DNA from: Thermosynechococcus sp.
Lineage (GTDB): Bacteria > Cyanobacteriota > Cyanobacteriia > Thermosynechococcales > Thermosynechococcaceae
NCBI RefSeq assembly: GCF_025999095.1
Contig: NZ_AP024678.1
Location: 1,023,527 to 1,087,526 of the forward strand
Direction: 5' to 3'
DNA: 64,000 nucleotides
Position 1 is the first letter of the stretch. Each line of letters starts with the position of its first letter. Shown piece after piece: positions 49,666 through 64,000 of this stretch. The notes below the pieces were generated by a model that was not told the origin of the DNA, ran no database searches, and worked only from the letters and a program-made list of their open reading frames with translations. The translations under genes were made by a program, and so were the position numbers.

Positions 49666-50772
49666 GTGAAAGGACGGACACGCTGGCTTGCTTTTCTGGT
49701 GATCCTGCTCCTGTGGTTGGGGACATGTCTGGCCTCGCCGCGGGCGATCGCGCTGCCTGTTGAACCTCCATTAATTGCTGCCCTGCCCCAAGGGAATGCC
49801 ATTACTGATCCCAAAGCCCTGCTCCGTTGGGCCTTACCTATTGACAATCCAACGGTGCGAGAACTGCAAAGGGATCTGGAACAAATCTCTTTTTGGGTGC
49901 GGGGCAAACAGTGGTCAAAAATTGCCAGCAACATCAGTAAGGCGAAAACCATTATCCGCGATCGCGCCGATGAACTCCTCAGCAGTATCCCTGCCGAGCA
50001 ACAGGAGGCTGCCAAAACACTATTGGCCGAGTTAGAGACTGCCCTTGATACACTCCAGGAGGCCGCCAAAGCTAAGGATCGCAGTCAACTCTTGCCCGCC
50101 AAAGCAGCCGCCCTCGACAAAGTCGGGGACCTAGAGGCTATGATGGTGCAAAACTTTAGCTATACGCCCCCCAAAGGCTATGAGCACCTGCCGCAATTGT
50201 TAGGTCGGGCAACCGTAGAAATGGAAACCACCAAAGGCAAGCTGACGATAGTTGTTGACGGCTACAGCGCACCCCTGACCGCGGGTAACTTCGTGGATTT
50301 GGTACAACGCCACTTCTACGACGGCCTGCCCTTCACCCGTGCCGAAGAATCCTATGTCCTGCAAGCAGGAGATCCACCGGGACCAGAGGTGGGGTTTATC
50401 GATCCTAAAACCAATGAGTACCGCGCCATTCCCTTGGAAATTCTTGTGGAAGGGGATAAGTATCCCCTCTATGGCATTACCCTTGAGGATGCAGGACGCT
50501 ACCTAGAACACCCCGTATTGCCCTTTTCCGCCTATGGCACGGTTGCGCTGGCACGGCCCAACGATGATCCCAACGGTGGCTCGTCACAATTTTTCTTTTT
50601 GCTCTTTGAACCCGAGCTGACCCCAGCAGGGTTAAACCTCTTGGACGGTCGCTACGCCGTCTTTGGCTATGTTGTGGAGGGAGAAGAAACCCTGCGGCAA
50701 CTGCGGCAAGGGGATAAAATTCTCTCAGCTAAGGTTGTAGACGGGCTTGAACATTTGGTGCAGCCCACCTAG
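49666..50772 (+). CDS. Cyclophilin-type peptidyl-prolyl isomerase, TLP40/CYP38-like
   Basis: About 368 residues from the GTG at 49666, chosen because it gives a basic start and signal peptide (WLAFLVILLLWLGTCLASPRAIA); an ATG at 49594 with an AAGGA upstream is an alternative. A helical region (about 50-170) precedes a cyclophilin domain (200-368) containing GNFVDLVQRHFYDGLPFTR, GGSSQFFFLLFE and LDGRYAVFGYVVEGEE. It corresponds to the lumenal CYP38/TLP40, needed for photosystem II assembly in plants. It marks the right end of the native segment. Confidence 0.9.
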   Translation: MKGRTRWLAFLVILLLWLGTCLASPRAIALPVEPPLIAALPQGNAITDPKALLRWALPIDNPTVRELQRDLEQISFWVRGKQWSKIASNISKAKTIIRDRADELLSSIPAEQQEAAKTLLAELETALDTLQEAAKAKDRSQLLPAKAAALDKVGDLEAMMVQNFSYTPPKGYEHLPQLLGRATVEMETTKGKLTIVVDGYSAPLTAGNFVDLVQRHFYDGLPFTRAEESYVLQAGDPPGPEVGFIDPKTNEYRAIPLEILVEGDKYPLYGITLEDAGRYLEHPVLPFSAYGTVALARPNDDPNGGSSQFFFLLFEPELTPAGLNLLDGRYAVFGYVVEGEETLRQLRQGDKILSAKVVDGLEHLVQPT

Positions 50773-50775
50773 GCC

Positions 50776-50790
50776 CCCTACTAGTTAGGG
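50776..50790. other. Short palindromic hairpin at the island boundary
   Basis: CCCTA (50776-50780) pairs with TAGGG (50786-50790) around a five-base loop, just after the cyclophilin stop and before the island's first gene. No T run follows, so terminator function is not claimed. No att-like duplication was recognised. Confidence 0.35.
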
Positions 50791-50794
50791 CAGC

Positions 50795-51724
50795 ATGAAA
50801 AGTTATTCAGTGACTACGGGTATTATGAATAACCAACCAAACTTACTTGATATCTCAAGCATCGCTTCCACCCGGGCCAAACCACGATTGAGCATTGGCA
50901 TGCCAGTATATAACGGTGCCAAATTTATTCGTGACGCTCTCGATTCATTATTGGGACAAAGCTTTACCAATTTTGAACTGATCATCTCAGATAATGCCTC
51001 AACGGACGAGACCGAGGCCATCTGCCGCGAGTACGCAGCAAAAGACAGCCGGATAAGGTATGTCCGCCAAACGCACAACAGGGGCGCAGCTGCCAACTTT
51101 AAGTATGTTCTAGATCAAGCAGTTGCCGAATACTTCATGTGGGCCGCTGCAGACGATGTATGGGATAGGGATTGGGTTGCTGCACTCTTGCCTATAGCCG
51201 TTAAAAATTCTTGCCTTGCATTCGGCAGTATCCGAACAATAGATGAAGTCGGTACCCTAATTAGCCACCCTGCAAACAACGGCACTTTTACTTATTCCGG
51301 AAGTAAACCGTTGCGTCGCTTAAAGTACGTACTAGAACCCAATTTTCTCGGAAAAGCCAACCCAATTTATGGGATTTTTCCAAAAAAAATTATAGGTGAC
51401 GACGCAATAAACATCCTTTCTTCAGGACTCTGGGCTGCCGATACGCACTTCTTGTACCATATCCTAGGGAAGTGCGACATTAAGTCCACTAAAGAGGTGT
51501 TTCTCTATAAGAGAATTCACAGCCTAGGTGCCAGCAACCCTGAACATTCAGATTTTGACCGTGCTGTCGCCAACCTGAGAGGTTACGGAGCACAGAGTAG
51601 CATCTTCGAGCGCATTCTTTTGGTGTCCCTTCTCCCAGTTGCCCCCCTTGCACGTATTTACGGTATGTTCATCCAGGTGAAGCGCCAGATTGAAGAGGCG
51701 ATGTTTTTGAACTCTAGGGTATAA
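50795..51724 (+). CDS. Family 2 glycosyltransferase
   Basis: 309 residues with the GT-A start LSIGMPVYNGAKFIRDALDSL, the NDP-binding DNASTD (about residues 67-72) and the acidic motif AAADDVWDRDWVA. It should add one sugar to a glycan repeat or lipid carrier in the cytoplasm. Its first 130 residues closely match those of the N-terminal part of the gene at 59435. A start at 50825 would remove 10 codons. It is more AT-rich than the following rfb genes. Confidence 0.9.
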   Translation: MKSYSVTTGIMNNQPNLLDISSIASTRAKPRLSIGMPVYNGAKFIRDALDSLLGQSFTNFELIISDNASTDETEAICREYAAKDSRIRYVRQTHNRGAAANFKYVLDQAVAEYFMWAAADDVWDRDWVAALLPIAVKNSCLAFGSIRTIDEVGTLISHPANNGTFTYSGSKPLRRLKYVLEPNFLGKANPIYGIFPKKIIGDDAINILSSGLWAADTHFLYHILGKCDIKSTKEVFLYKRIHSLGASNPEHSDFDRAVANLRGYGAQSSIFERILLVSLLPVAPLARIYGMFIQVKRQIEEAMFLNSRV

Positions 51725-51862
51725 TCGCTTCTCAGTTGTATTGCAGAATTGGCATGCAGATGCTTCAGTAGGCAGCAAAGCTGCTCCTAGCGCTCCAGAA
51801 AATGTACCATTGGGCTTCGCCACTTAAATATCTTGACCGCCTGCGTTTGAACTAGGGATTGA

Positions 51863-52050
51863 ATTTGGGCTGCGTATGCAGCCTTGATTGCCACAGTTAA
51901 ACCCTTCGAGGTGCAGCAGGTGGTTGGTCTATTTGGGCACCCACTGGTACAGCCTTTGTTCGATACGACCAAACCCAACAGTATGCCGAGAAAAGTCTCG
52001 GATATAAGCCGGCCATAAATCTGGTATTCTCGTATTGGCGTTTTTTGCTT
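51863..52050 (+). pseudogene. Relic of GDP-L-fucose synthase C-terminus
   Basis: In one frame 51890-52018 reads VQQVVGLFGH then PLFDTTKPNSMPRKVSDISR, matching the conserved fucose synthase end VFDTSKPDGTPRKLLDVSR. A shift later, the adjacent frame gives SLGYKPAINL, matching ALGWKPKI-type sequence. The rest of the gene is missing and the frame is broken, so it is a decayed copy. The other bases between 51725 and 52108 show nothing recognisable, apart from weak promoter-like AT stretches before rfbF. Confidence 0.6.
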
Positions 52051-52108
52051 CCCTTACTAGTGGCCTTATAGCATCATATTGCGGCTACACCGATTAGTCA
52101 AACTAACA

Positions 52109-52882
52109 ATGAAAGCTGTTATACTTGCTGGTGGCTTAGGCAGCCGCATCTCCGAGGAAACTCATCTTAAACCAAAGCCGATGATTGAAATTGGTGGTAA
52201 GCCAATCCTGTGGGACATCATGAAGATCTACTCTGCCCACGGTGTGCACGACTTCATCGTCTGCTGTGGCTACAAGGGATACGTGATCAAAGAGTATTTC
52301 GCCAACTATTTTCTGCATATGTCTGATGTTACTTTTGACATGGTGCATAACACGATGGAGGTACACAGGCGGCAGGCCGAACCATGGCGAGTGACCTTGG
52401 TGGATACGGGGGAAGACACCTTAACCGGCGGTCGCTTGAAACGCGTCGCCGAATATGTGCGCGCAGAAAACGCTTTTTGTTTCACCTATGGCGACGGTTT
52501 GGCGGATATAGACATCACCCAGGAAATCGCCTTTCACAAAAGCCACGGGAAGCTGGCGACTGTCGCAGCCGTTCAGCCACCCGGGCGTTATGGCGCATTG
52601 CAAATGGACGCCAGTAAGGTCACAGGCTTTACAGAAAAACCGCGTGGAGATGGCGGGTAAATCAATGGGGGTTTCTTTATCCTGTCACCAAAGTGCATAG
52701 ATTTCATCGAAGGGGATGCAACCAGCTTCGAGAGCGATACACTGGTTCGCCTTGCGAACAGGGGCGAGCTGATGGCGTTCGCGCACCACGGTTTCTGGCA
52801 GCCGATGGACACGCTCCGCGACAAGAACCACCTCGAGGGGTTATGGAATTCCGGCAAGGCCCCCTGGAAAGTGTGGACATGA
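52109..52882 (+). pseudogene. rfbF: Glucose-1-phosphate cytidylyltransferase, interrupted
   Basis: The ATG at 52109 opens AVILAGGLGSRISEETHLKPKPM, the nucleotidyltransferase signature, and joins alpha-D-glucose-1-phosphate to CTP, making CDP-glucose. The frame hits TAA at 52658-52660 in place of the usual tryptophan (GDGG-stop-INGGFF); after it the same frame continues INGGFFILSPKCIDF to a TGA at 52880-52882. Without the stop it is 257 residues, the normal RfbF length. The stop overlaps the rfbG start by four bases. Truncated protein would lose the C-terminal third. Confidence 0.85.
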
Positions 52883-53954
52883 ACAGCTTCTTTTGGCAGG
52901 GCAAGCGGGTTTTAATCACCGGCCACACGGGTTTCAAAGGCGGGTGGCTTGCCCTGTGGCTACGCGAGCTCGGAGCCACGCTATGTGGCATTTCGCTGCC
53001 ACCTGCAACACAACCATGCCTCTTTGAGCTCGCGCGGGTCGGGGAAGGCATGGAAAGTCACTTCATCGACATTCGTGATGTGGAAAGCCTCGCGCGCACC
53101 GTCCGCAAATTTGCCCCCCAGATTGTCGTCCATTTGGCGGCGCAGCCGCTGGTGCGTGCCAGCTATCGCGATCCGCTGCTGACCTTTGCGACCAATATCA
53201 TGGGAACCGCTCAGGTGCTGGATTCCCTTCGTGGGCTGGATTCCGTGCGTGTGGCGGTTTTCGTGACCACCGACAAGGTCTATGAAAACCGCGAGTGGCC
53301 CTACCCCTACCGTGAAACGGACTCCCTGGGCGGTCATGACCCTTACAGTGCGAGCAAGGCGGCGAGTGAACTCGTCGTGGCCAGCTACCGCGAGGCATTC
53401 TTACGCGAGCAAGGGATAGCAGTCGCCACCGCACGGGCGGGCAACGTCATCGGCGGTGGTGACTGGTCTGAGGATCGGCTCATTCCAGATGCGATCCGCG
53501 CGTGGCAATCGGGAAAACAGCTTTTCGTGCGTCGCCCAGAGGCGATCCGACCTTGGCAGCATGTTCTCGAACCGCTCTATGGCTATCTGGTTTTGGCCGA
53601 GAGGTTGTGGGACCAGCCACACTTAGCCGGGGCATACAATTTCGGCCCTGATCCCGCCGAGGCCGCCACTGTGCGCGCAGTTATCGAGTATGCCCGCGCT
53701 GCCGTGGCCAGGTACAAATAGACTTCGCCGCTGCCCCCGAGGGTCCGCACGAAGCCCATTGGCTGGCGCTGGAAACGGTTAAGGCACGTGCCACCCTAGG
53801 TGTCAGACCCCGATGGAACCTGGCCACTGCCATCAGGCGCACCATATCGTGGTACAAGGCCCTGAGCCAAGGAGCCGATGCGCGCGCATTGTGTCTTGCC
53901 GATATCCTCGATTATCAGCAAGGCATTAGCCAAGGAGGGGAGAGCCCTCAATGA
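52879..53954 (+). pseudogene. rfbG: CDP-glucose 4,6-dehydratase, frameshifted
   Basis: SDR-family dehydratase opening NSFFWQGKRVLITGHTGFKGGWLALWL with the glycine motif (GHTGFKGG), and the YxxxK catalytic pair in YSASKAASE. The frame ends at 53719-53721, but a one-base shift near 53712 restores QIDFAAAPEGPHEAHWLALE on to a TGA at 53952-53954. The joined length is about 358 residues, typical. RfbG makes CDP-4-keto-6-deoxyglucose. The lesion removes about 80 C-terminal residues, so activity is doubtful. Confidence 0.85.
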
Positions 53955-54511
53955 GCCGTTTTACCATTACCGCAACTCCCCTAGCCGGGCTTATGGTGCT
54001 TGAACGCCATCCTCGTATGGATGCACGGGGCTACCTTGAGCGGCTTTTTTGCATTGATGAGCTGAAAACGTTGCTCGCAGGCCGAACCATCCTACAAATC
54101 AACCACACATTCACGGCGCAAAAGGGCACTGTGCGCGGCCTGCACTTCCAGCATCCGCCACACGCGGAGATGAAATTCGTCCACTGCCTGCGCGGTGAAG
54201 TGTTCGACGTCGCGGTGGACCTGCGCAAAGGGTCGCCGACCTTCTTGAAATGGCATGCCGAGGTACTCACACCTGATAATCACAAGACCCTCGTCATTCC
54301 TGAAGGCTTTGCCCACGGCTTCCAGACTCTCACCGACGATTGCGAAATGCTCTACTTCCATACCGCAGCCTACCATCCCAACGCGGAAGCAGGACTTCAT
54401 CCCCTTGACCTGCGTCTCGCTATCCATTGGCCGCTGCCGGTGGCGCAGCTCTCAACGCGTGACGGGAACCATCCGATGCTGGATGACCGGTTCGAGGGGC
54501 TCGTGTTATGA
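53951..54511 (+). CDS. RfbC-type 4-keto-6-deoxysugar 3,5-epimerase
   Basis: 186 residues in the cupin family of dTDP-4-dehydrorhamnose 3,5-epimerases. The catalytic His region is in HTFTAQKGTVRGLHFQ (about 57-72), and the lower conserved piece VIPEGFAHGFQTL is present. In this setting, after CDP-sugar genes, it may epimerise a CDP- rather than dTDP-linked intermediate; sequence alone does not decide. Its start sits in the rfbG tail, and its stop overlaps the next start by four bases. Confidence 0.85.
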   Translation: MSRFTITATPLAGLMVLERHPRMDARGYLERLFCIDELKTLLAGRTILQINHTFTAQKGTVRGLHFQHPPHAEMKFVHCLRGEVFDVAVDLRKGSPTFLKWHAEVLTPDNHKTLVIPEGFAHGFQTLTDDCEMLYFHTAAYHPNAEAGLHPLDLRLAIHWPLPVAQLSTRDGNHPMLDDRFEGLVL

Positions 54512-55734
54512 AATGCCGCCACTGTGGCTCCCCGCTTGATCTCGTGCTGATCGACTTGGGTGCCCAACCTCCCTCGAACGCCTACCTCACTCCGGATGCA
54601 TTGCGCGCGCCGGAGCGGTGGTACCCGTTGCGGGTCTTGGTTTGCGAACACTGCTGGCTGGTGCAAACGGAGGATTTCACGCGCGCCGAAGAACTGTTCA
54701 GTCCCGATTACGCCTATTTCAGCGGCTTCTCCACCTCGTGGCTTGCCCACTGCAAACGCTTTGTCGAGGAAGCCAGCCAACGTTTCGGGCTGGGGCCTGA
54801 GAGCTACGTGGTCGAGGTGGCCGCCAATGATGGCTATCTCCTGCAATACGTGCAGGCACACGGCATCCCTTGTCTTGGCATCGAGCCCACCGCGAGTACG
54901 GCTGCCGCCGCACGGACCAAAGGCATTGCCATCGTCCAGGATTTCTTCGGGGTTCGCCTAGCCCAAACGCTCGTCAGCGAGGGCAAGCAAGCCGATCTCA
55001 TGATTGCCAACAACGTGCTCGCCCATGTGCCCGATATCAACGACTTCGTGGGGGGCTTTTCAATCCTGCTCAAGCCTCGCGGGGTGGCCACCTTTGAATT
55101 TCCGCATCTATTGCGGCTCATCGTCGAAGCGCAGTTCGACACCATCTATCACGAACACTTCTCCTATCTTTCCCTCACCGCCGTCGAACGCATTTTCTCC
55201 AGTGTGGGGCTGATCGTCTTCGACGTGGAAGAGCTGCCCACGCACGGCGGCAGCCTGCGGGTCTATGCCCAGCGTGCCGATACGGGTACATACCCAAGGA
55301 GCATTCGTGTCGATGCCATGCTCGAAAAGGAGCGCGCCGCCGGGCTTATGGACAGCGCGACCTATTCCGGCTTTCAGGCGCGCGCCGAACGCATCAAGGA
55401 CGACTTCCTCGGCTTTTTGCTCACGGCAAAGCGCGAGGGCAAGCGCGTCGCCGCTTATGGGGCGGCCGCCAAGGGCAACACGCTGCTCAACTTTGCTGGC
55501 GTCAAGCCAGATCTTCTCCCTTTCGTCGTAGACAGAAACCCTGCCAAACAAGGCAAGTATCTACCTGGCAGCCGCATTCCCATTGTGGGGGAGCAAAAAC
55601 TCGAGGCAACCCGGCCAGACTACATCGTGATCCTACCCTGGAATCTCCGCGAGGAGATCATGGCTCAGCTCGTTTATGCTAGAAGTTGGGGCGCGCGTTT
55701 CGTGACGGCGGTACCGAAGCTGGAGGTTGTATGA
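54508..55734 (+). CDS. Nucleotide-sugar C-methyltransferase
   Basis: 408 residues. An N-terminal zinc-type motif with C3-x2-C6 and a second Cys pair near residue 48 (VCEHCW) precedes a SAM-binding core VVEVAANDGYLLQYV (about 107-121). A C-terminal domain with AYGAAAKGNTLLNFAG follows, a pattern of NDP-hexose C-3 methyltransferases such as TylC3/NovU. It should place a branch methyl on the 4-keto-6-deoxy sugar from rfbFG. The next gene begins four bases inside its stop. Confidence 0.88.
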   Translation: MKCRHCGSPLDLVLIDLGAQPPSNAYLTPDALRAPERWYPLRVLVCEHCWLVQTEDFTRAEELFSPDYAYFSGFSTSWLAHCKRFVEEASQRFGLGPESYVVEVAANDGYLLQYVQAHGIPCLGIEPTASTAAAARTKGIAIVQDFFGVRLAQTLVSEGKQADLMIANNVLAHVPDINDFVGGFSILLKPRGVATFEFPHLLRLIVEAQFDTIYHEHFSYLSLTAVERIFSSVGLIVFDVEELPTHGGSLRVYAQRADTGTYPRSIRVDAMLEKERAAGLMDSATYSGFQARAERIKDDFLGFLLTAKREGKRVAAYGAAAKGNTLLNFAGVKPDLLPFVVDRNPAKQGKYLPGSRIPIVGEQKLEATRPDYIVILPWNLREEIMAQLVYARSWGARFVTAVPKLEVV

Positions 55735-55895
55735 AATCCCGCATCCTTTATACCAAGCCATCGATCACCGAACTTGAAGTCCGTTATGCAACCGAGGCCG
55801 CTGCCAATGGCTGGGGCGAGCGGTGTTATGAATACATCGAGCGCTTCGAATCTCTGTTCAAGAAATACCTGGGTGTCGAATTCGCTATCAGCTAA
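55731..55895 (+). pseudogene. DegT/DnrJ/EryC1/StrS aminotransferase, N-terminal stub
   Basis: Starting at ATG 55731, 54 residues read RILYTKPSITELEVRYATEA, then YIERFESLFKKYLGVEFAIS and a stop. This matches the first helices of the PLP-dependent sugar aminotransferases, which normally run about 370-400 residues. After the stop the sequence changes to unrelated DNA before the next gene at 55981, so the rest was deleted. Without it the amino step of a deoxysugar path cannot take place from this locus. Confidence 0.75.
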
Positions 55896-58109: not shown

Positions 58110-59400
58110 ATGGCGCTGAAACGCAACCTCATCGCCAACTACGTGGGCCAAGGCTGGGCGGCCGTGATGGGGGTGCTCTTCATCCCTGTTTACATCCACC
58201 AGCTTGGCATCGGCGCGTGGGGGTTGGTGGCCTTCGTGAGTACACTGCAGGCATGGCTGCTGTTGCTAGATCTGGGGCTCACGCCAACCATCAGCCGGGA
58301 GATGGCAAGATATACGGGGGGGCAGCATACCCCGGCTTCCATCCTTGGCCTTCTGCGGGCTTTCGAGACTGTCTACCTGGGCATCGCGCTTTTGGTTTGC
58401 ATTGGCGTGGCCGTTGCCGCAGGTTGGATTGCAGAATGGTGGCTCGGCGACGATGGCCTGCCAAAAGCACACGTGTTGGCTGCTCTGCAGATCAGTGGCG
58501 TCCTGCTGGCTGGGCGTCTGCTCGAGCAAAGCTATCGCGGTGCTTTGCGGGGTCTGCAGCGCCAGGTGTGGCTAAACGTCGTCGATGGAGCGCTTGCCAC
58601 GCTTCGTTGGGGCGGTGCCGCTCTGTTAGTCTCGTTCTTGCCCAAGGTGGAAGCGTTTTTCGCGTGGCACGCAGGGATTTCGATCCTATCGGTGGCAGTG
58701 CTTTATCGCAAGACACATCGCCTACTGGCCATCTCGGGCAAACAGAAGCCACACGCTGATTTCCGCTTGCTCTGGTCCATTCGTCATATCAGCGGCGGTA
58801 TGGCGATGATCACCCTCCTTGCGCTGCTGCTCACCCAGGTGGACAAGCTTTTGCTAAGCAAGCTGCTCACCCTCGATATGGACAGGCAACGCAGCCATCG
58901 CAGCTGAAGCGGCACCCATCCTGACGCTGCTCGCGCTCGGCACGATGTTCAATGCCTTCATGCACGTGCCCTACCAGACACAATTGGCTTACGGCTGGAC
59001 GAGCCTGGCGGTCAAAACCAACCTGGTCGCGGTTGCACTTCTGCTGCCCGCGATCGCGATCCTAGTGCCCAGATACGGTGCGATCGCCTCTGCGTGGGTA
59101 TGGTGCATTTTGAATGCGGGTTACGTGCTGCTGCCGATCCATTTTATGTATCGGCGCCTGCTGACACGAGAAAAGGCGGCGTGGTACTGGCATGCGGTCA
59201 TCAACCCCTTGCTGATTGCAACCCTGCTCCTGAGCTTGGTCAAGGCGTTTCTGCTTCCGTTAATTCTCATCCCTTTGGCGCAGATCGGAGCGATCGCCGC
59301 CACCGCAGCTGTTTGCGGAATGGCGATCTGCCTCGTGTCGCCCGCGCTCAGACCAACGCTGGTTGCTTTCGTGCGGAAATGGCAGCCGGCTGCGCAGTAA
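58110..59400 (+). pseudogene. Polysaccharide flippase with internal deletion
   Basis: Residues 1-257 (ALKRNLIANYVGQGWAAVMG onward) are the N-terminal half of a Wzx-like oligosaccharide flippase up to DKLLLSKLLTLDM. A sudden jump then gives a 1-base-shifted frame, TGNAAIAAEAAPILTLLALG, continuing as MFNAFMHVPYQTQLAYGW to the stop at 59400. About 90-100 codons normally between these parts are missing, and the frame is not kept (stop at 58905-58907). So the gene is probably non-functional. The two parts meet near 58880-58885 with a short shared ATGG/TGG. Confidence 0.85.
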
Positions 59401-59434: not shown

Positions 59435-60757
59435 ATGCAGATGACAGACATGCAACAGACGACGCCAAGCGTCAGCATCGGAATGCCCGTTTACAACGGA
59501 GCAGGTTTCAGCCGGCAAGCGCTGGATTCGATCCTGGCCCAGACATATCCTCATTTCGAGCTGATCATCTCGGACAATGCGTCTACGGACGACACGGCGG
59601 AAATATGCCAAGAGTACGCATCAAGAGATTCCAGGATTCGTTACGTGCGGCAGGAGAAAAACATTGGTGCAGCTTGCAATTTTCGCTATGTATTGGATGC
59701 AGCAACCCATGATCGATTCATTTGGGCTGCGGCGGATGATTGGTGGGATCAGGATCGCCTGGAGCATCTTGTGCAGGCGTTAACACCCGAAAACGCCGCA
59801 GTCGTTGGCACTATACGCCGCTATGTTGATGGCGTTCCCTATGCGGAATACGTGCCGGTCACGTTCGAGAAGGGTGCATGGTGGCGATATTTGATGCGCG
59901 AGGAGGCAAGATGCGAAAAGGTTTACTATGCCAACGGTCTGTTGCCCGCTGCGACGCCGTTGGCGATCATGCTGGGTGTCTTCGCCTGGGGCGCATCCGG
60001 CGGTTGGCAGGTGCTGGCTGTCGCGCTCACGGCAGGGGCCGCCATCGAAAGCGGGCTGCTGCTGATCGCGCTCGCGCGGATGGGGTTGCTCGCGTGGACG
60101 GCTGACTTCAAGACCGCCGCGCCCATCCTCTCGGCGAGCCTGGGACTGCTGCCTGGCACTTTTGTCATGGCGTTTGGGCCCCTGATCGAGCAAGCCATCG
60201 CTGCCGGCTTGGGCGAAGGTTCCAACGCTGCGCTCACCTACGGCTACAAGCTCCCAGCCGCCGTGCAGAGTATCTTGGTCACCGCGATTGGCATCACCGC
60301 CTTGCCTTATTTTTCAGCCCAGATCGGGCAAGGCCGACATGCCTACAGCCTGCACAGCCTGAACAAGCTCACGCTGGCGCTGTTGACCGGTGGTGCGCTG
60401 CTGGCGCTGCCGCTGGGCCTGTTCTCGGCCGAGATCGCCGCGCTGCTCTACCAGCGTGGCGCCTTCGACGCATCGGCCACGGCGCGCGTAGTGCCGATCC
60501 AGCTAGCTTATTTTATCCAGATCCCTTTCGCGCTGGTGACCATGCTCGGCATCAAAGCCGTGGCTGCGCTCAGGCGCAATGGGTTGCTCAGCCTCTACAC
60601 CGCGCTGGGTGTGTTGCTACAAGCCCTGCTGGCCTATGCGCTCGCCACGCGCCATGGTCTGCCCGGCATCGCCTGGGCGGCCGTCATCGTCTCGGCTCTG
60701 ATGACCATCACGACTTACCTTACCACGCGCGGCACGCTGCGCCGACTGTCGCCATGA
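59435..60757 (+). CDS. Chimeric ORF: GT2 glycosyltransferase N-part fused to MurJ-like C-part
   Basis: 440 residues from the ATG at 59435 (AGGAG lies just upstream). Residues 1-170 are family 2 glycosyltransferase (SIGMPVYNG, DNASTDD, AAADDWWDQD), closely related to the gene at 50795. After YYANGLLP at about 59930-59947 the reading switches, in frame, to the C-terminal half of a MurJ/MviN-type flippase: AALTYGYKLPAAVQSILVTAIG and LLYQRGAFDASATARVV, with about eight membrane helices. Both halves are incomplete, so it is likely a deletion fusion. It might yet make a membrane-tethered protein. The next gene starts within its stop (ATGA). Confidence 0.8.
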   Translation: MQMTDMQQTTPSVSIGMPVYNGAGFSRQALDSILAQTYPHFELIISDNASTDDTAEICQEYASRDSRIRYVRQEKNIGAACNFRYVLDAATHDRFIWAAADDWWDQDRLEHLVQALTPENAAVVGTIRRYVDGVPYAEYVPVTFEKGAWWRYLMREEARCEKVYYANGLLPAATPLAIMLGVFAWGASGGWQVLAVALTAGAAIESGLLLIALARMGLLAWTADFKTAAPILSASLGLLPGTFVMAFGPLIEQAIAAGLGEGSNAALTYGYKLPAAVQSILVTAIGITALPYFSAQIGQGRHAYSLHSLNKLTLALLTGGALLALPLGLFSAEIAALLYQRGAFDASATARVVPIQLAYFIQIPFALVTMLGIKAVAALRRNGLLSLYTALGVLLQALLAYALATRHGLPGIAWAAVIVSALMTITTYLTTRGTLRRLSP

Positions 60758-61866
60758 AAAAAGTCTGCCTATTCAACTTCCCGCCGATGGAAAACTTCCA
60801 CGGCTATCGCATCGAAAGCTTCGACCCCTTGTCCTATTTCCCCAAGGGGGCGCGCTGGTCGCTGATGGATTTGATCATCTGGGGCCTGAACGGCTGGGAT
60901 CAGCGGCGGTCGCTTTTCGACTTTGGCGCGGCTGGCGTGGATCGGCTCTACCGCGAACGCAACCCGCACTACATGCGCATGGTCGGCGATTTCATCGACC
61001 GCTTTCGTGACTTCGATCTGATCGTCATGAGCACCTACAACTTCATCCACCCCGAGGTGCTGGTGCGTGAACTCAAGAAGCCCGTCAAGGTGCTCGGCTT
61101 CATCGATGATCCTTTGTCTACCTACCTGCGTGGAATTCCTTATCTTTGGGCATTCGATGGCGCCTTCTTCATTTCACCGGGCTATATCGACGACCTTCTT
61201 TTCGAAGACGCCATCCGGCGGTGGACCGATAAGCCGGCCACTTGGTGGCCGTTGGTTCCGTTTCCCTATCAGCGGCCCGCGAACGCGGACGAAACCTTCT
61301 TCCGTAACCGTGACGTCGATATCGTCTATGTCGGCAATCCCAGCGCATCGAAGGTCGAACGGCTCATCCGGCTAAAACGTCATTTCGGGGCCCGGCTGCG
61401 CGTTCATGGGCGCTGGCCGTTCAAGGGATATGCTGGCTTTGTACGCGGCTTGTTCGGCAAACCGGTGTATCCCCACCGGGTCACGAGCCTGACCGGAGAG
61501 CAGCGCACACAGCTTTACTGGCGCGCCAAAATCGGCTTCAACATGCACGTCTCGGATCATCCTTACGAGACCGGCAACATGCGCATGTACGAAACCCCGG
61601 CGCATGGAATGATGATGGTCTGCGACAAGGCGGCCGCCGATGCACATGCGCGGATATTCGCGCCGGGCACTGAGGCCATTTATTACGACACGCTCGCAGA
61701 GGCCATCGAACTGATGGAGCACTACCTTGACCACGACGAGGAACGCATTCGGATCGCAAGGGCGGGATACGAGCGGTATTGGCGGGATTATGAGTGGGAA
61801 GCCAACTTGCTTAGATTTCTTGGATGGTGTGAAACCATTCGAACATCCGAGCAGGGTAACGCGTAA
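60754..61866 (+). CDS. Glycosyltransferase (CgeB-like)
   Basis: 370 residues, with a Rossmann-like C-terminal half (VDIVYVGNPSASKVERLI; then AKIGFNMHVSDHPYETGNMRMYETPAHGMMM near 255-290), which holds the His/Glu/Pro-Gly type donor site of GT-B enzymes related to CgeB. The N-terminal half is less conserved. It should transfer a sugar to a glycan acceptor; specificity is unknown. GC-rich, coupled to the previous gene. Confidence 0.75.
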   Translation: MKKVCLFNFPPMENFHGYRIESFDPLSYFPKGARWSLMDLIIWGLNGWDQRRSLFDFGAAGVDRLYRERNPHYMRMVGDFIDRFRDFDLIVMSTYNFIHPEVLVRELKKPVKVLGFIDDPLSTYLRGIPYLWAFDGAFFISPGYIDDLLFEDAIRRWTDKPATWWPLVPFPYQRPANADETFFRNRDVDIVYVGNPSASKVERLIRLKRHFGARLRVHGRWPFKGYAGFVRGLFGKPVYPHRVTSLTGEQRTQLYWRAKIGFNMHVSDHPYETGNMRMYETPAHGMMMVCDKAAADAHARIFAPGTEAIYYDTLAEAIELMEHYLDHDEERIRIARAGYERYWRDYEWEANLLRFLGWCETIRTSEQGNA

Positions 61867-61872
61867 CAGAAC

Positions 61873-62577
61873 ATGGAACCTATGACATTAGATCAGCAAA
61901 AGATTTGGGATTATTTCCAAAACGAGGGGATTGATTCCTTTGCGCGGAGCTCTGGGCGTCTCGAGTTTCTGGTCAGACGTCTTTCTCCAGGTTCACGAGT
62001 TCTAAACATTGGTATTGGGAATGGTGCTTTGGAGCGAATGGCCCTTGCGAAGGGTGTAGATATCTGGAGCCTTGACCCAAGCGAACGAGCGATTGAGGCG
62101 TTGAGATCTGCGCTTGGGTGGGGCGAACAAGCACAAGTGGGTGTCAGCCAAGCGATGCCGTTTCCCGATGATTACTTCGATGTGGTCATCATGTCGGAGG
62201 TTCTCGAGCATTTGGCGGACGATGTATTTGAAGCGACTTTGTTCGAGGTAGCGAGAGTCTTGCGTCCAGGTGGCCGATTTATTGGCACTGTGCCAGCCCG
62301 AGAAAAACTAGAAGATTCGATTGTCGTTTGCCCGAATTGCGGTCACAAATTTCACCGCTGGGGTCATTATCGTAGTTTTACGGTTGAAACCCTCGCGGCC
62401 AGCTTGAAACAGCATTTTGCAGTCGAGGCTGCCTATGAAACATTTTTCATAGAGTGGGAGTCTGTTGGGTGGTGGCGCAAGATACAAGGCCTGATCAAGA
62501 AATTCTTGTCGTGGCGTGGTATTGGAACTTATGGAATTTGCCGGAATATTTACTTTTGCGCACGAAAGCAAAGCTAG
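61873..62577 (+). CDS. SAM-dependent methyltransferase with Cys motif
   Basis: 234 residues with motif I VLNIGIGNGALERM (about 45-58), then FPDDYFDVVIMSEVLEHL as motif post-II and VLRPGGRFIGTVPA as motif IV. Between them a C-x2-C (VCPNCGHKFHRWGH, about 160-173) may bind zinc. Substrate unknown, likely a glycan or lipid-linked sugar. Lower in G+C than its left neighbour. Confidence 0.85.
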   Translation: MEPMTLDQQKIWDYFQNEGIDSFARSSGRLEFLVRRLSPGSRVLNIGIGNGALERMALAKGVDIWSLDPSERAIEALRSALGWGEQAQVGVSQAMPFPDDYFDVVIMSEVLEHLADDVFEATLFEVARVLRPGGRFIGTVPAREKLEDSIVVCPNCGHKFHRWGHYRSFTVETLAASLKQHFAVEAAYETFFIEWESVGWWRKIQGLIKKFLSWRGIGTYGICRNIYFCARKQS

Positions 62578-62592
62578 CCGGGAGAATGGATT

Positions 62593-63342
62593 ATGTCCAA
62601 TCTAGTTAAGGTGCGTACCGAGGAATTCAATTATGTTAAAAAATTCTTTCTGCCAGGAATGAGTGTTCTTGAAATTGGTGGCGGCTCTGGCTATCAGGCT
62701 AGTCTAATAGCGTCTACCGGGGCATCCGTCGTTAGCATCGATGTGGCGAAGCCACTACCAGGAGTGGAAATTTATTTCCCTGTGCAAATTTATGGTGGGG
62801 CGACACTTCCTTTCCCGGATAACTATTTCGATGTGGTGTTCTCCTCTAATGTTCTTGAGCACATCCAGGATTTGAGAGCAACGCTTTCTGAAGTGCGGCG
62901 AGTGATGAAATCGGATGGTATGGCAATACATATCCTCCCGACCTCTGCGCGGCGCGCCTGGACGAGTCTTTCGCATTACGTTCATATTGCTAGACGACTT
63001 ATCGGTCTGGTTTGCCGACGATATTACGTAATAAATACACCAGCCGTGCCCCGTGATCCAGGATGTGCACATCATGGCACTTGGGCAGCCATAAAACGGG
63101 TATTTTGGGACGGACCTCACGGTGAATACCCTTCCGCCATTTCAGAGCTTTGGTATTTCAGTCGCCGGCGCTGGTTAAAGGTGTTTCAAGAGAACGGCTT
63201 CGACTTAATTTGGGATCAGCCTAGCGGAATTTTTTATACAGGCTACGGTGTGTTTCCAGCCATATCCATAGGGAGACGCCAGGCACTAGCACGTGTCCTC
63301 GGCTCGGCTACTCGAGTGTTCGTTTTACGAAAGGCAGCATGA
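62593..63342 (+). CDS. SAM-dependent methyltransferase
   Basis: 249 residues with motif I MSVLEIGGGSGYQASLIAS (about 24-42) and motif II-like FPDNYFDVVFSSNVLEHIQDL; then MKSDGMAIHILPTS. It is a class I methyltransferase of the Methyltransf_11 type. Together with the preceding gene it suggests two methylations of the glycan. The stop overlaps the next start by four bases. Confidence 0.85.
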   Translation: MSNLVKVRTEEFNYVKKFFLPGMSVLEIGGGSGYQASLIASTGASVVSIDVAKPLPGVEIYFPVQIYGGATLPFPDNYFDVVFSSNVLEHIQDLRATLSEVRRVMKSDGMAIHILPTSARRAWTSLSHYVHIARRLIGLVCRRYYVINTPAVPRDPGCAHHGTWAAIKRVFWDGPHGEYPSAISELWYFSRRRWLKVFQENGFDLIWDQPSGIFYTGYGVFPAISIGRRQALARVLGSATRVFVLRKAA

Positions 63343-64000
63343 GTCGTACCGTTTTTCTTGTGCGCAAACTCGATCCTGGCGGCGCAGAAAGACAACTTGT
63401 GGCATTGTCCCGTGGACTCAAAGAACGGGGGCGCGACGTTAATGTCGTCTTGTTTTACCAAGGTGGGGTCTTCGATGCCGAGCTCTCCGCCGCTGGCGTG
63501 CCTTTGCATTTCGTTGGTAAGCAAGGACGCTGGGATGTCGCTGGCTTCTTGTTGCGCCTCACGCGAATCCTGCGCACGTTGCGGCCAACCACGATCTATT
63601 CCTTTCTCGACATGCCGAATGTGCTGGCTTCCTTGCTGTGGCTGCTGATTGGCCGCCCTCGGCTAGTGTGGAGCATACGCGCCGCGGGAATGGAAATGCG
63701 CCACTATGACTGGCTAGCAAGGCTGGTGGCGAAGCTGGAGGCGGCGCTAAGTGGGACAGCCGATGTCGTTGTCGCGAATTCTCAGGCCGGGAGGTCATGG
63801 GGTATTCGCCGGGGTTTTCCGCCCGGACGGATCGTGGTCATCGAAAACGGAATCGACACGGCGCGCTTCAGGTTCGACTCGCTCGGGCGTCAGCGCGTCC
63901 GCAGCGAATGGAAAATCGGCGCTGACCAAACGGCAATAGGGCTTGTGGCGCGCCTGGATGTCATGAAGGATCATCGCAACTTCCTCCAAGCATGTGCCTT
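63339..64000 (+). CDS. GT4-type glycosyltransferase, cut by the window edge
   Basis: Open from the ATG at 63339 to the last base, 220 codons. The opening VFLVRKLDPGGAERQLVALSRGL is the donor/acceptor lobe start of GT4 enzymes, with GGAER, and later VVIENGIDTARF and IGLVARLDVMKDH match the linker and UDP-sugar lobe. The reading is continuous with no stop. The C-terminal half lies outside the window. Confidence 0.88.
   Translation, partial: MSRTVFLVRKLDPGGAERQLVALSRGLKERGRDVNVVLFYQGGVFDAELSAAGVPLHFVGKQGRWDVAGFLLRLTRILRTLRPTTIYSFLDMPNVLASLLWLLIGRPRLVWSIRAAGMEMRHYDWLARLVAKLEAALSGTADVVVANSQAGRSWGIRRGFPPGRIVVIENGIDTARFRFDSLGRQRVRSEWKIGADQTAIGLVARLDVMKDHRNFLQACA

Follow-up and report, generated by a model that had tools for sequence, protein, structure and literature searches.

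A 440-aa open reading frame (ORF; 59435..60757, + strand) was characterized in a 64,000-nucleotide stretch (contig positions 1023527-1087526) of the genome of a hot-spring cyanobacterium, hereafter called the window; features given below as start..end lie on the + strand. The ORF joins the N-terminal half of a GT2 glycosyltransferase in frame to the C-terminal half of a MurJ-like flippase. It is very probably a scar of illegitimate recombination or deletion in a mosaic, decaying cell-surface polysaccharide cluster, and its product is probably non-functional. Most likely, the fusion represents a harmless leftover of DNA loss, and no new enzyme arose from it.

Composition of the fusion ORF

The ORF lies inside a surface polysaccharide cluster and contains no internal stop over its 440 codons, up to the stop at 60757. 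Two ATG codons (59435 and 59441) could serve as the start, with AGGAG just 5′ of them, and the stop overlaps the start of the next gene in the sequence ATGA (60754-60757). Pfam analysis assigned residues 14-135 to PF00535 (GT2; E value, 1e-30) and residues 164-431 to PF03023 (MurJ; E value, 5e-11; profile positions 127-399 of 451), which bears out the sequence-only reading that a GT2 half and a MurJ-like half share one uninterrupted frame. The G + C content is 52.9% in the GT2 half vs 65.6% in the flippase half, and this contrast is consistent with separate origins but does not prove them. Whole-genome search showed that the fusion ORF is single-copy in the host genome.

The GT2 half (59435..59908; residues ~1-158) was delimited by Pfam and by an alignment with relatives, and it corresponds to the nucleotide-binding part of the enzyme. 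In the alignment with 27 GT2 relatives, the ‘DNASTD’ and ‘ADD’ motifs are retained and ‘WAAADD’ lines up with the relatives; the N-terminal nucleotide-binding half with its DXD-like motif is thus present. The C-terminal segment of a complete GT2 domain, which carries the acceptor/catalytic-base region, is absent, and flippase sequence stands in its place. The GT2 part measures ~158 aa vs 285–309 aa in intact relatives, so that ~150 C-terminal residues are missing, among them the acidic segment that relatives conserve beyond their YG[LI] motif. An [SAN]D..(L/F)L segment past the junction, conserved in nearly all aligned relatives, is absent from the fusion. Partial coverage of PF00535 was considered as proof of truncation and was rejected, since intact relatives of the subfamily also match just profile positions 1-123 of 168. 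The case for truncation therefore rests on length and on the alignment with intact relatives.

An intact GT2 gene of 309 aa in the same window (50795..51724) shares 59% identity over 121 aa with the GT2 half, confirming the paralogy that had been proposed from the sequence, and it is the sole other DNA match of the fusion in the host genome (66% identical). In-genus paralogues aside, the best match to the GT2 half is the GT2 of locus L075; identity to the intact 308-aa GT2 of L075/L048 is 48–49% through residue ~164. The likeness to the GT2 family (PF00535; subfamily of L075 and window 50795) thus amounts to 48–59% identity over the first ~120–158 residues. The C-terminal part of GT2 found no match in the host genome (best E value, 0.23).

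The flippase half (59915..60757; residues 161-437) represents the last 60% of a MurJ-like protein of the MOP flippase superfamily, starting from the TM4-5 loop, and the first ~166 residues are absent. Residues 159-437 of the fusion share 55% identity with residues 167-447 of the flippase of L023, a locus from a Proteobacteria MAG that represents MurJ-like flippases of polysaccharide clusters. When the L023 flippase was aligned to T. africanus MurJ (5T77), the fusion was found to start at 5T77 residue ~147-150, and TM1-4 are therefore gone; the missing residues 1-166 are equivalent to 5T77 residues up to about 146. Homology to the C-lobe (TM7-12) is present, and a complete N-lobe (TM1-6) is not. 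Arg24 and Arg255 of MurJ are essential, and Arg24-Asp25-Arg255 is a proposed substrate-binding triad (PMC6465408). The R24 and D25 positions (5T77 numbering) disappeared with the missing N-terminal residues, and lysine occupies the R255 position in the fusion. Against the NCBIfam murJ equivalog, the fusion scored 57 bits, far under the cut-off of 235.55. Thus, although the fusion resembles the MurJ/MviN lipid II flippases (PF03023, TIGR01695; 5T77) over the matched profile positions, it differs from them in its missing TM1-4, its lysine at an essential arginine and its low score. Even the intact L023 flippase scores only 122, so the flippase of this cluster is unlikely to be a genuine orthologue of murJ.

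The first 166 residues of the flippase are absent from the host genome, where a query with the intact flippase matched nothing besides the fusion itself and the host's ordinary murJ on the chromosome. Nothing close to the flippase half was detected in 291 cyanobacterial genomes (best other E value, 8e-26), and among 369 genomes of the class of L023, no second close flippase was detected besides that in L023’s own genome. IMG/VR and plasmids yielded no relatives of this half.

Position of the junction

The junction is contained in the interval 59819..59917, which extends from the end of confident GT2 homology to the start of MurJ homology, and sequence comparison places it most likely near 59900-59917. 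GT2 similarity in the fusion is strong up to residue 128-135 and weak up to ~158. Consistent with this, residues 129-160 showed a weak fit to GT2 (10 of 300 shuffles) and no fit to the flippase. Similarity to the L023 flippase begins at residue 159-161, and a profile built from seven flippases aligned to the fusion from residue 161 (match residues 161-432). The string EKVYYANGLLPAATP scored 48 against the L023 flippase, a value matched by 0 of 300 shuffles, and 14 against GT2, which is lower than the shuffle mean.

The sequence-only reading had placed the end of GT2 homology at GLLP. This boundary is off by roughly 10–50 codons: NGLLP is identical in the fusion and in the intact L023 flippase, so the junction must be earlier than GLLP, which belongs to the flippase side together with EKVYYANGLLPAATP. 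The interval 59,900-60,000 that had been suggested for PCR barely includes the junction. No remnant was detectable around the junction in any frame. A join by NGL microhomology, with the GT2 motif K....YG[LI]F aligned to KVYYANGL, was also considered and rejected, since the profile and shuffle tests place this string on the flippase side; microhomology at the join is unproven.

Intact relatives and the decaying cluster

Complete counterparts of both halves were found in other genomes. In L023, a complete 450–461-aa flippase is followed by a glycosyltransferase (PF13524), two methyltransferases and a GT4, and the window genes from 60754 share this order, with protein identities of 80, 70, 57, and 54%, respectively. 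These include a full-length, intact glycosyltransferase (PF13524; 60754..61866) directly downstream of the fusion and two intact methyltransferase genes (61873..63342) in the same order as 3′ of the intact L023 flippase. In G516, a second genome of L023’s class, locus L075 carries a complete wzx whose end overlaps the complete 308-aa GT2, and this order, wzx and then GT2, is that of the window at 58110 and 59435. At the right edge of the window, the GT4 gene (63336-64000 and L073:25-876) retains 336 of its 378 residues and breaks off at 64331. Beyond the window, this GT4 is followed by ~3 kb of gene fragments, including GT2 and aminotransferase pieces, and then by core genes.

Compared with G021 and L023, several genes near the fusion are broken, by lesions that are independent of one another. 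Directly upstream, a wzx-type flippase gene (58110..59400) is split into two ORFs; 28 nt stand in place of residues 241-323 of 497, with a change of frame, leaving it ~83 codons short of the 497/507-aa copy that is intact in G021, a genome of the same genus (L044:8888-10411). A ddhA/rfbF-like nucleotidyltransferase gene (52079..52879) contains a premature stop at a Tyr position (GDGG*INGG), after which homology resumes in the same frame, and an intact 267-aa copy is present in L044. The adjacent ddhB-like CDP-glucose 4,6-dehydratase gene (52882..53950) has a frameshift near 53706, and homology goes on in another frame. A DegT aminotransferase stub (55731..55895; 74% identical to L023) retains the first 54 of 368 residues. 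Another DegT fragment lies outside the window (L073:3149-3439).

Between G021 and the window, DNA identity is 80% over 50000-55678 and 73% over the methyltransferase-wzx part. The wzx of G021 is intact, other genes lie to the right of it, and G021 has no fusion. Because the left and wzx parts are shared with G021 and the right-hand genes are like those of L023, the window locus is, as judged by these comparisons, a mosaic of a genus-shared part and an L023-like part, with the fusion at the seam. The left border of the polysaccharide island, a PPIase gene, is common to the window and G021, and the right-hand genes differ.

The same architecture was not found elsewhere. No fusion spanning both halves was detected in 29 family genomes, in plasmids or phages, or in a scan of genomes from 84,980 species, which is sensitive to near relatives only; within the reach of these searches, the fusion is thus confined to one genome and does not form a family.

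Origin and coding potential of the fusion

From the ORF, intact parents, missing pieces and neighbour decay observed here, we infer the following order of events. In the ancestor, a complete GT2 gene would have come after wzx, and to the right of these a complete gene for a MurJ-like flippase would have preceded the glycosyltransferase (PF13524) and two methyltransferases. A deletion may then have removed the segment from mid-GT2 to the loop that precedes TM5 of the flippase, or two clusters of this kind may have recombined at that point; either event would have joined the two halves. Coding sequence of at least ~0.9 kb is missing, with ~150 codons from GT2 and ~166 from the flippase. The in-frame join is presumed to be due to chance, as a random join is in frame one-third of the time. 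In the predicted product, the GT-A fold would be incomplete and the flippase part would lack TM1-4, so the protein is probably inactive both as a glycosyltransferase and as a flippase. Since the flippase stop overlaps the next start, the in-frame join could let ribosomes reach the intact downstream glycosyltransferase, and such continued translation is a possible reason for the persistence of the fusion.

Gene decay and deletion in surface polysaccharide clusters are well documented, for example in Salmonella O-antigen islands (PMC6712391). Like these Salmonella rfb islands, the window cluster is mosaic in content, has lost genes and includes pseudogenes, but it differs in that the two ends of a single deletion fall in two different genes, with an in-frame join and a long ORF. 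Features of a pseudogene or deletion scar were found at this locus, namely, parents that are intact elsewhere, lost pieces that are absent and neighbours that are decaying. Translocation in place of loss was rejected, as the lost GT2 and flippase pieces occur nowhere else in the host genome.

The fusion had been described earlier as a possible deletion artefact. The deletion is upheld by the intact parents, the absence of the lost pieces and the variously broken neighbours; an error of assembly or sequencing, in which complete GT2 and MurJ-like genes are really present and the assembler skipped the intervening DNA, is very unlikely. The several broken adjacent genes could resemble a low-quality stretch of sequence, and to that extent they would fit such an error. 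However, the host genome is a single contig of 2,497,893 bp with 99.99% completeness and 0.02% contamination, the halves are not linked by a long repeat, with only the 66%-identical GT2 paralogue as another DNA match, and the lost pieces are absent from the rest of the genome. The lesions are also mixed (nonsense, frameshift, deletions and stubs) and are found only in non-core polysaccharide genes, and the stretch from 60754 to 63342 is intact. Because the parents are intact elsewhere, the lost pieces are absent and the neighbours were broken independently, the fusion is better explained as a biological scar than as an assembly error.

Some observations run counter to the reading of the fusion as a scar. 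The 440-codon ORF is intact, with a plausible ribosome-binding site and an overlap with the next gene, and translation of the fusion is therefore possible. In addition, the flippase N-terminus and the TM4-5 loop are cytoplasmic; as the flippase half starts in this loop, a membrane-anchored cytoplasmic GT2 is topologically possible. C-terminal membrane helices occur in many real GT2 enzymes. Together with the retained nucleotide-binding part and DXD-like motif, these features would suit a functional chimeric glycosyltransferase, in which the GT2 is mounted on eight flippase helices and transfers sugar to a lipid-linked acceptor. This explanation is nevertheless very unlikely, given that the ~150 missing GT2 residues include the [SAN]D..(L/F)L segment, the fusion occurs in no other genome searched and the cluster is decaying. 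The odd membrane glycosyltransferase offered as an alternative in the sequence-only reading has no support, since both domains are cut, catalytic or substrate-binding parts are gone and no second genome with the fusion was found. A translated and working enzyme of this kind, whose new architecture would have come from a single in-frame deletion between the GT2 and flippase genes, is also very improbable.

As a scar, the fusion ORF is of minor importance alone, but it provides a clear example of decay and recombination in a polysaccharide cluster. An in-frame scar of this kind can get through automatic annotation as a two-domain protein, and the fusion should not be annotated as ‘membrane glycosyltransferase’ or ‘lipid II flippase MurJ’.

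Finally, the fusion could be maintained as a translated leader with no enzymatic activity, serving to couple its own translation to that of the next glycosyltransferase gene, as the ATGA overlap is like that in intact L023 and the downstream glycosyltransferase and methyltransferases are intact, but this is highly improbable, since chance alone gives an in-frame join one-third of the time and the deletion in the upstream wzx is out of frame.
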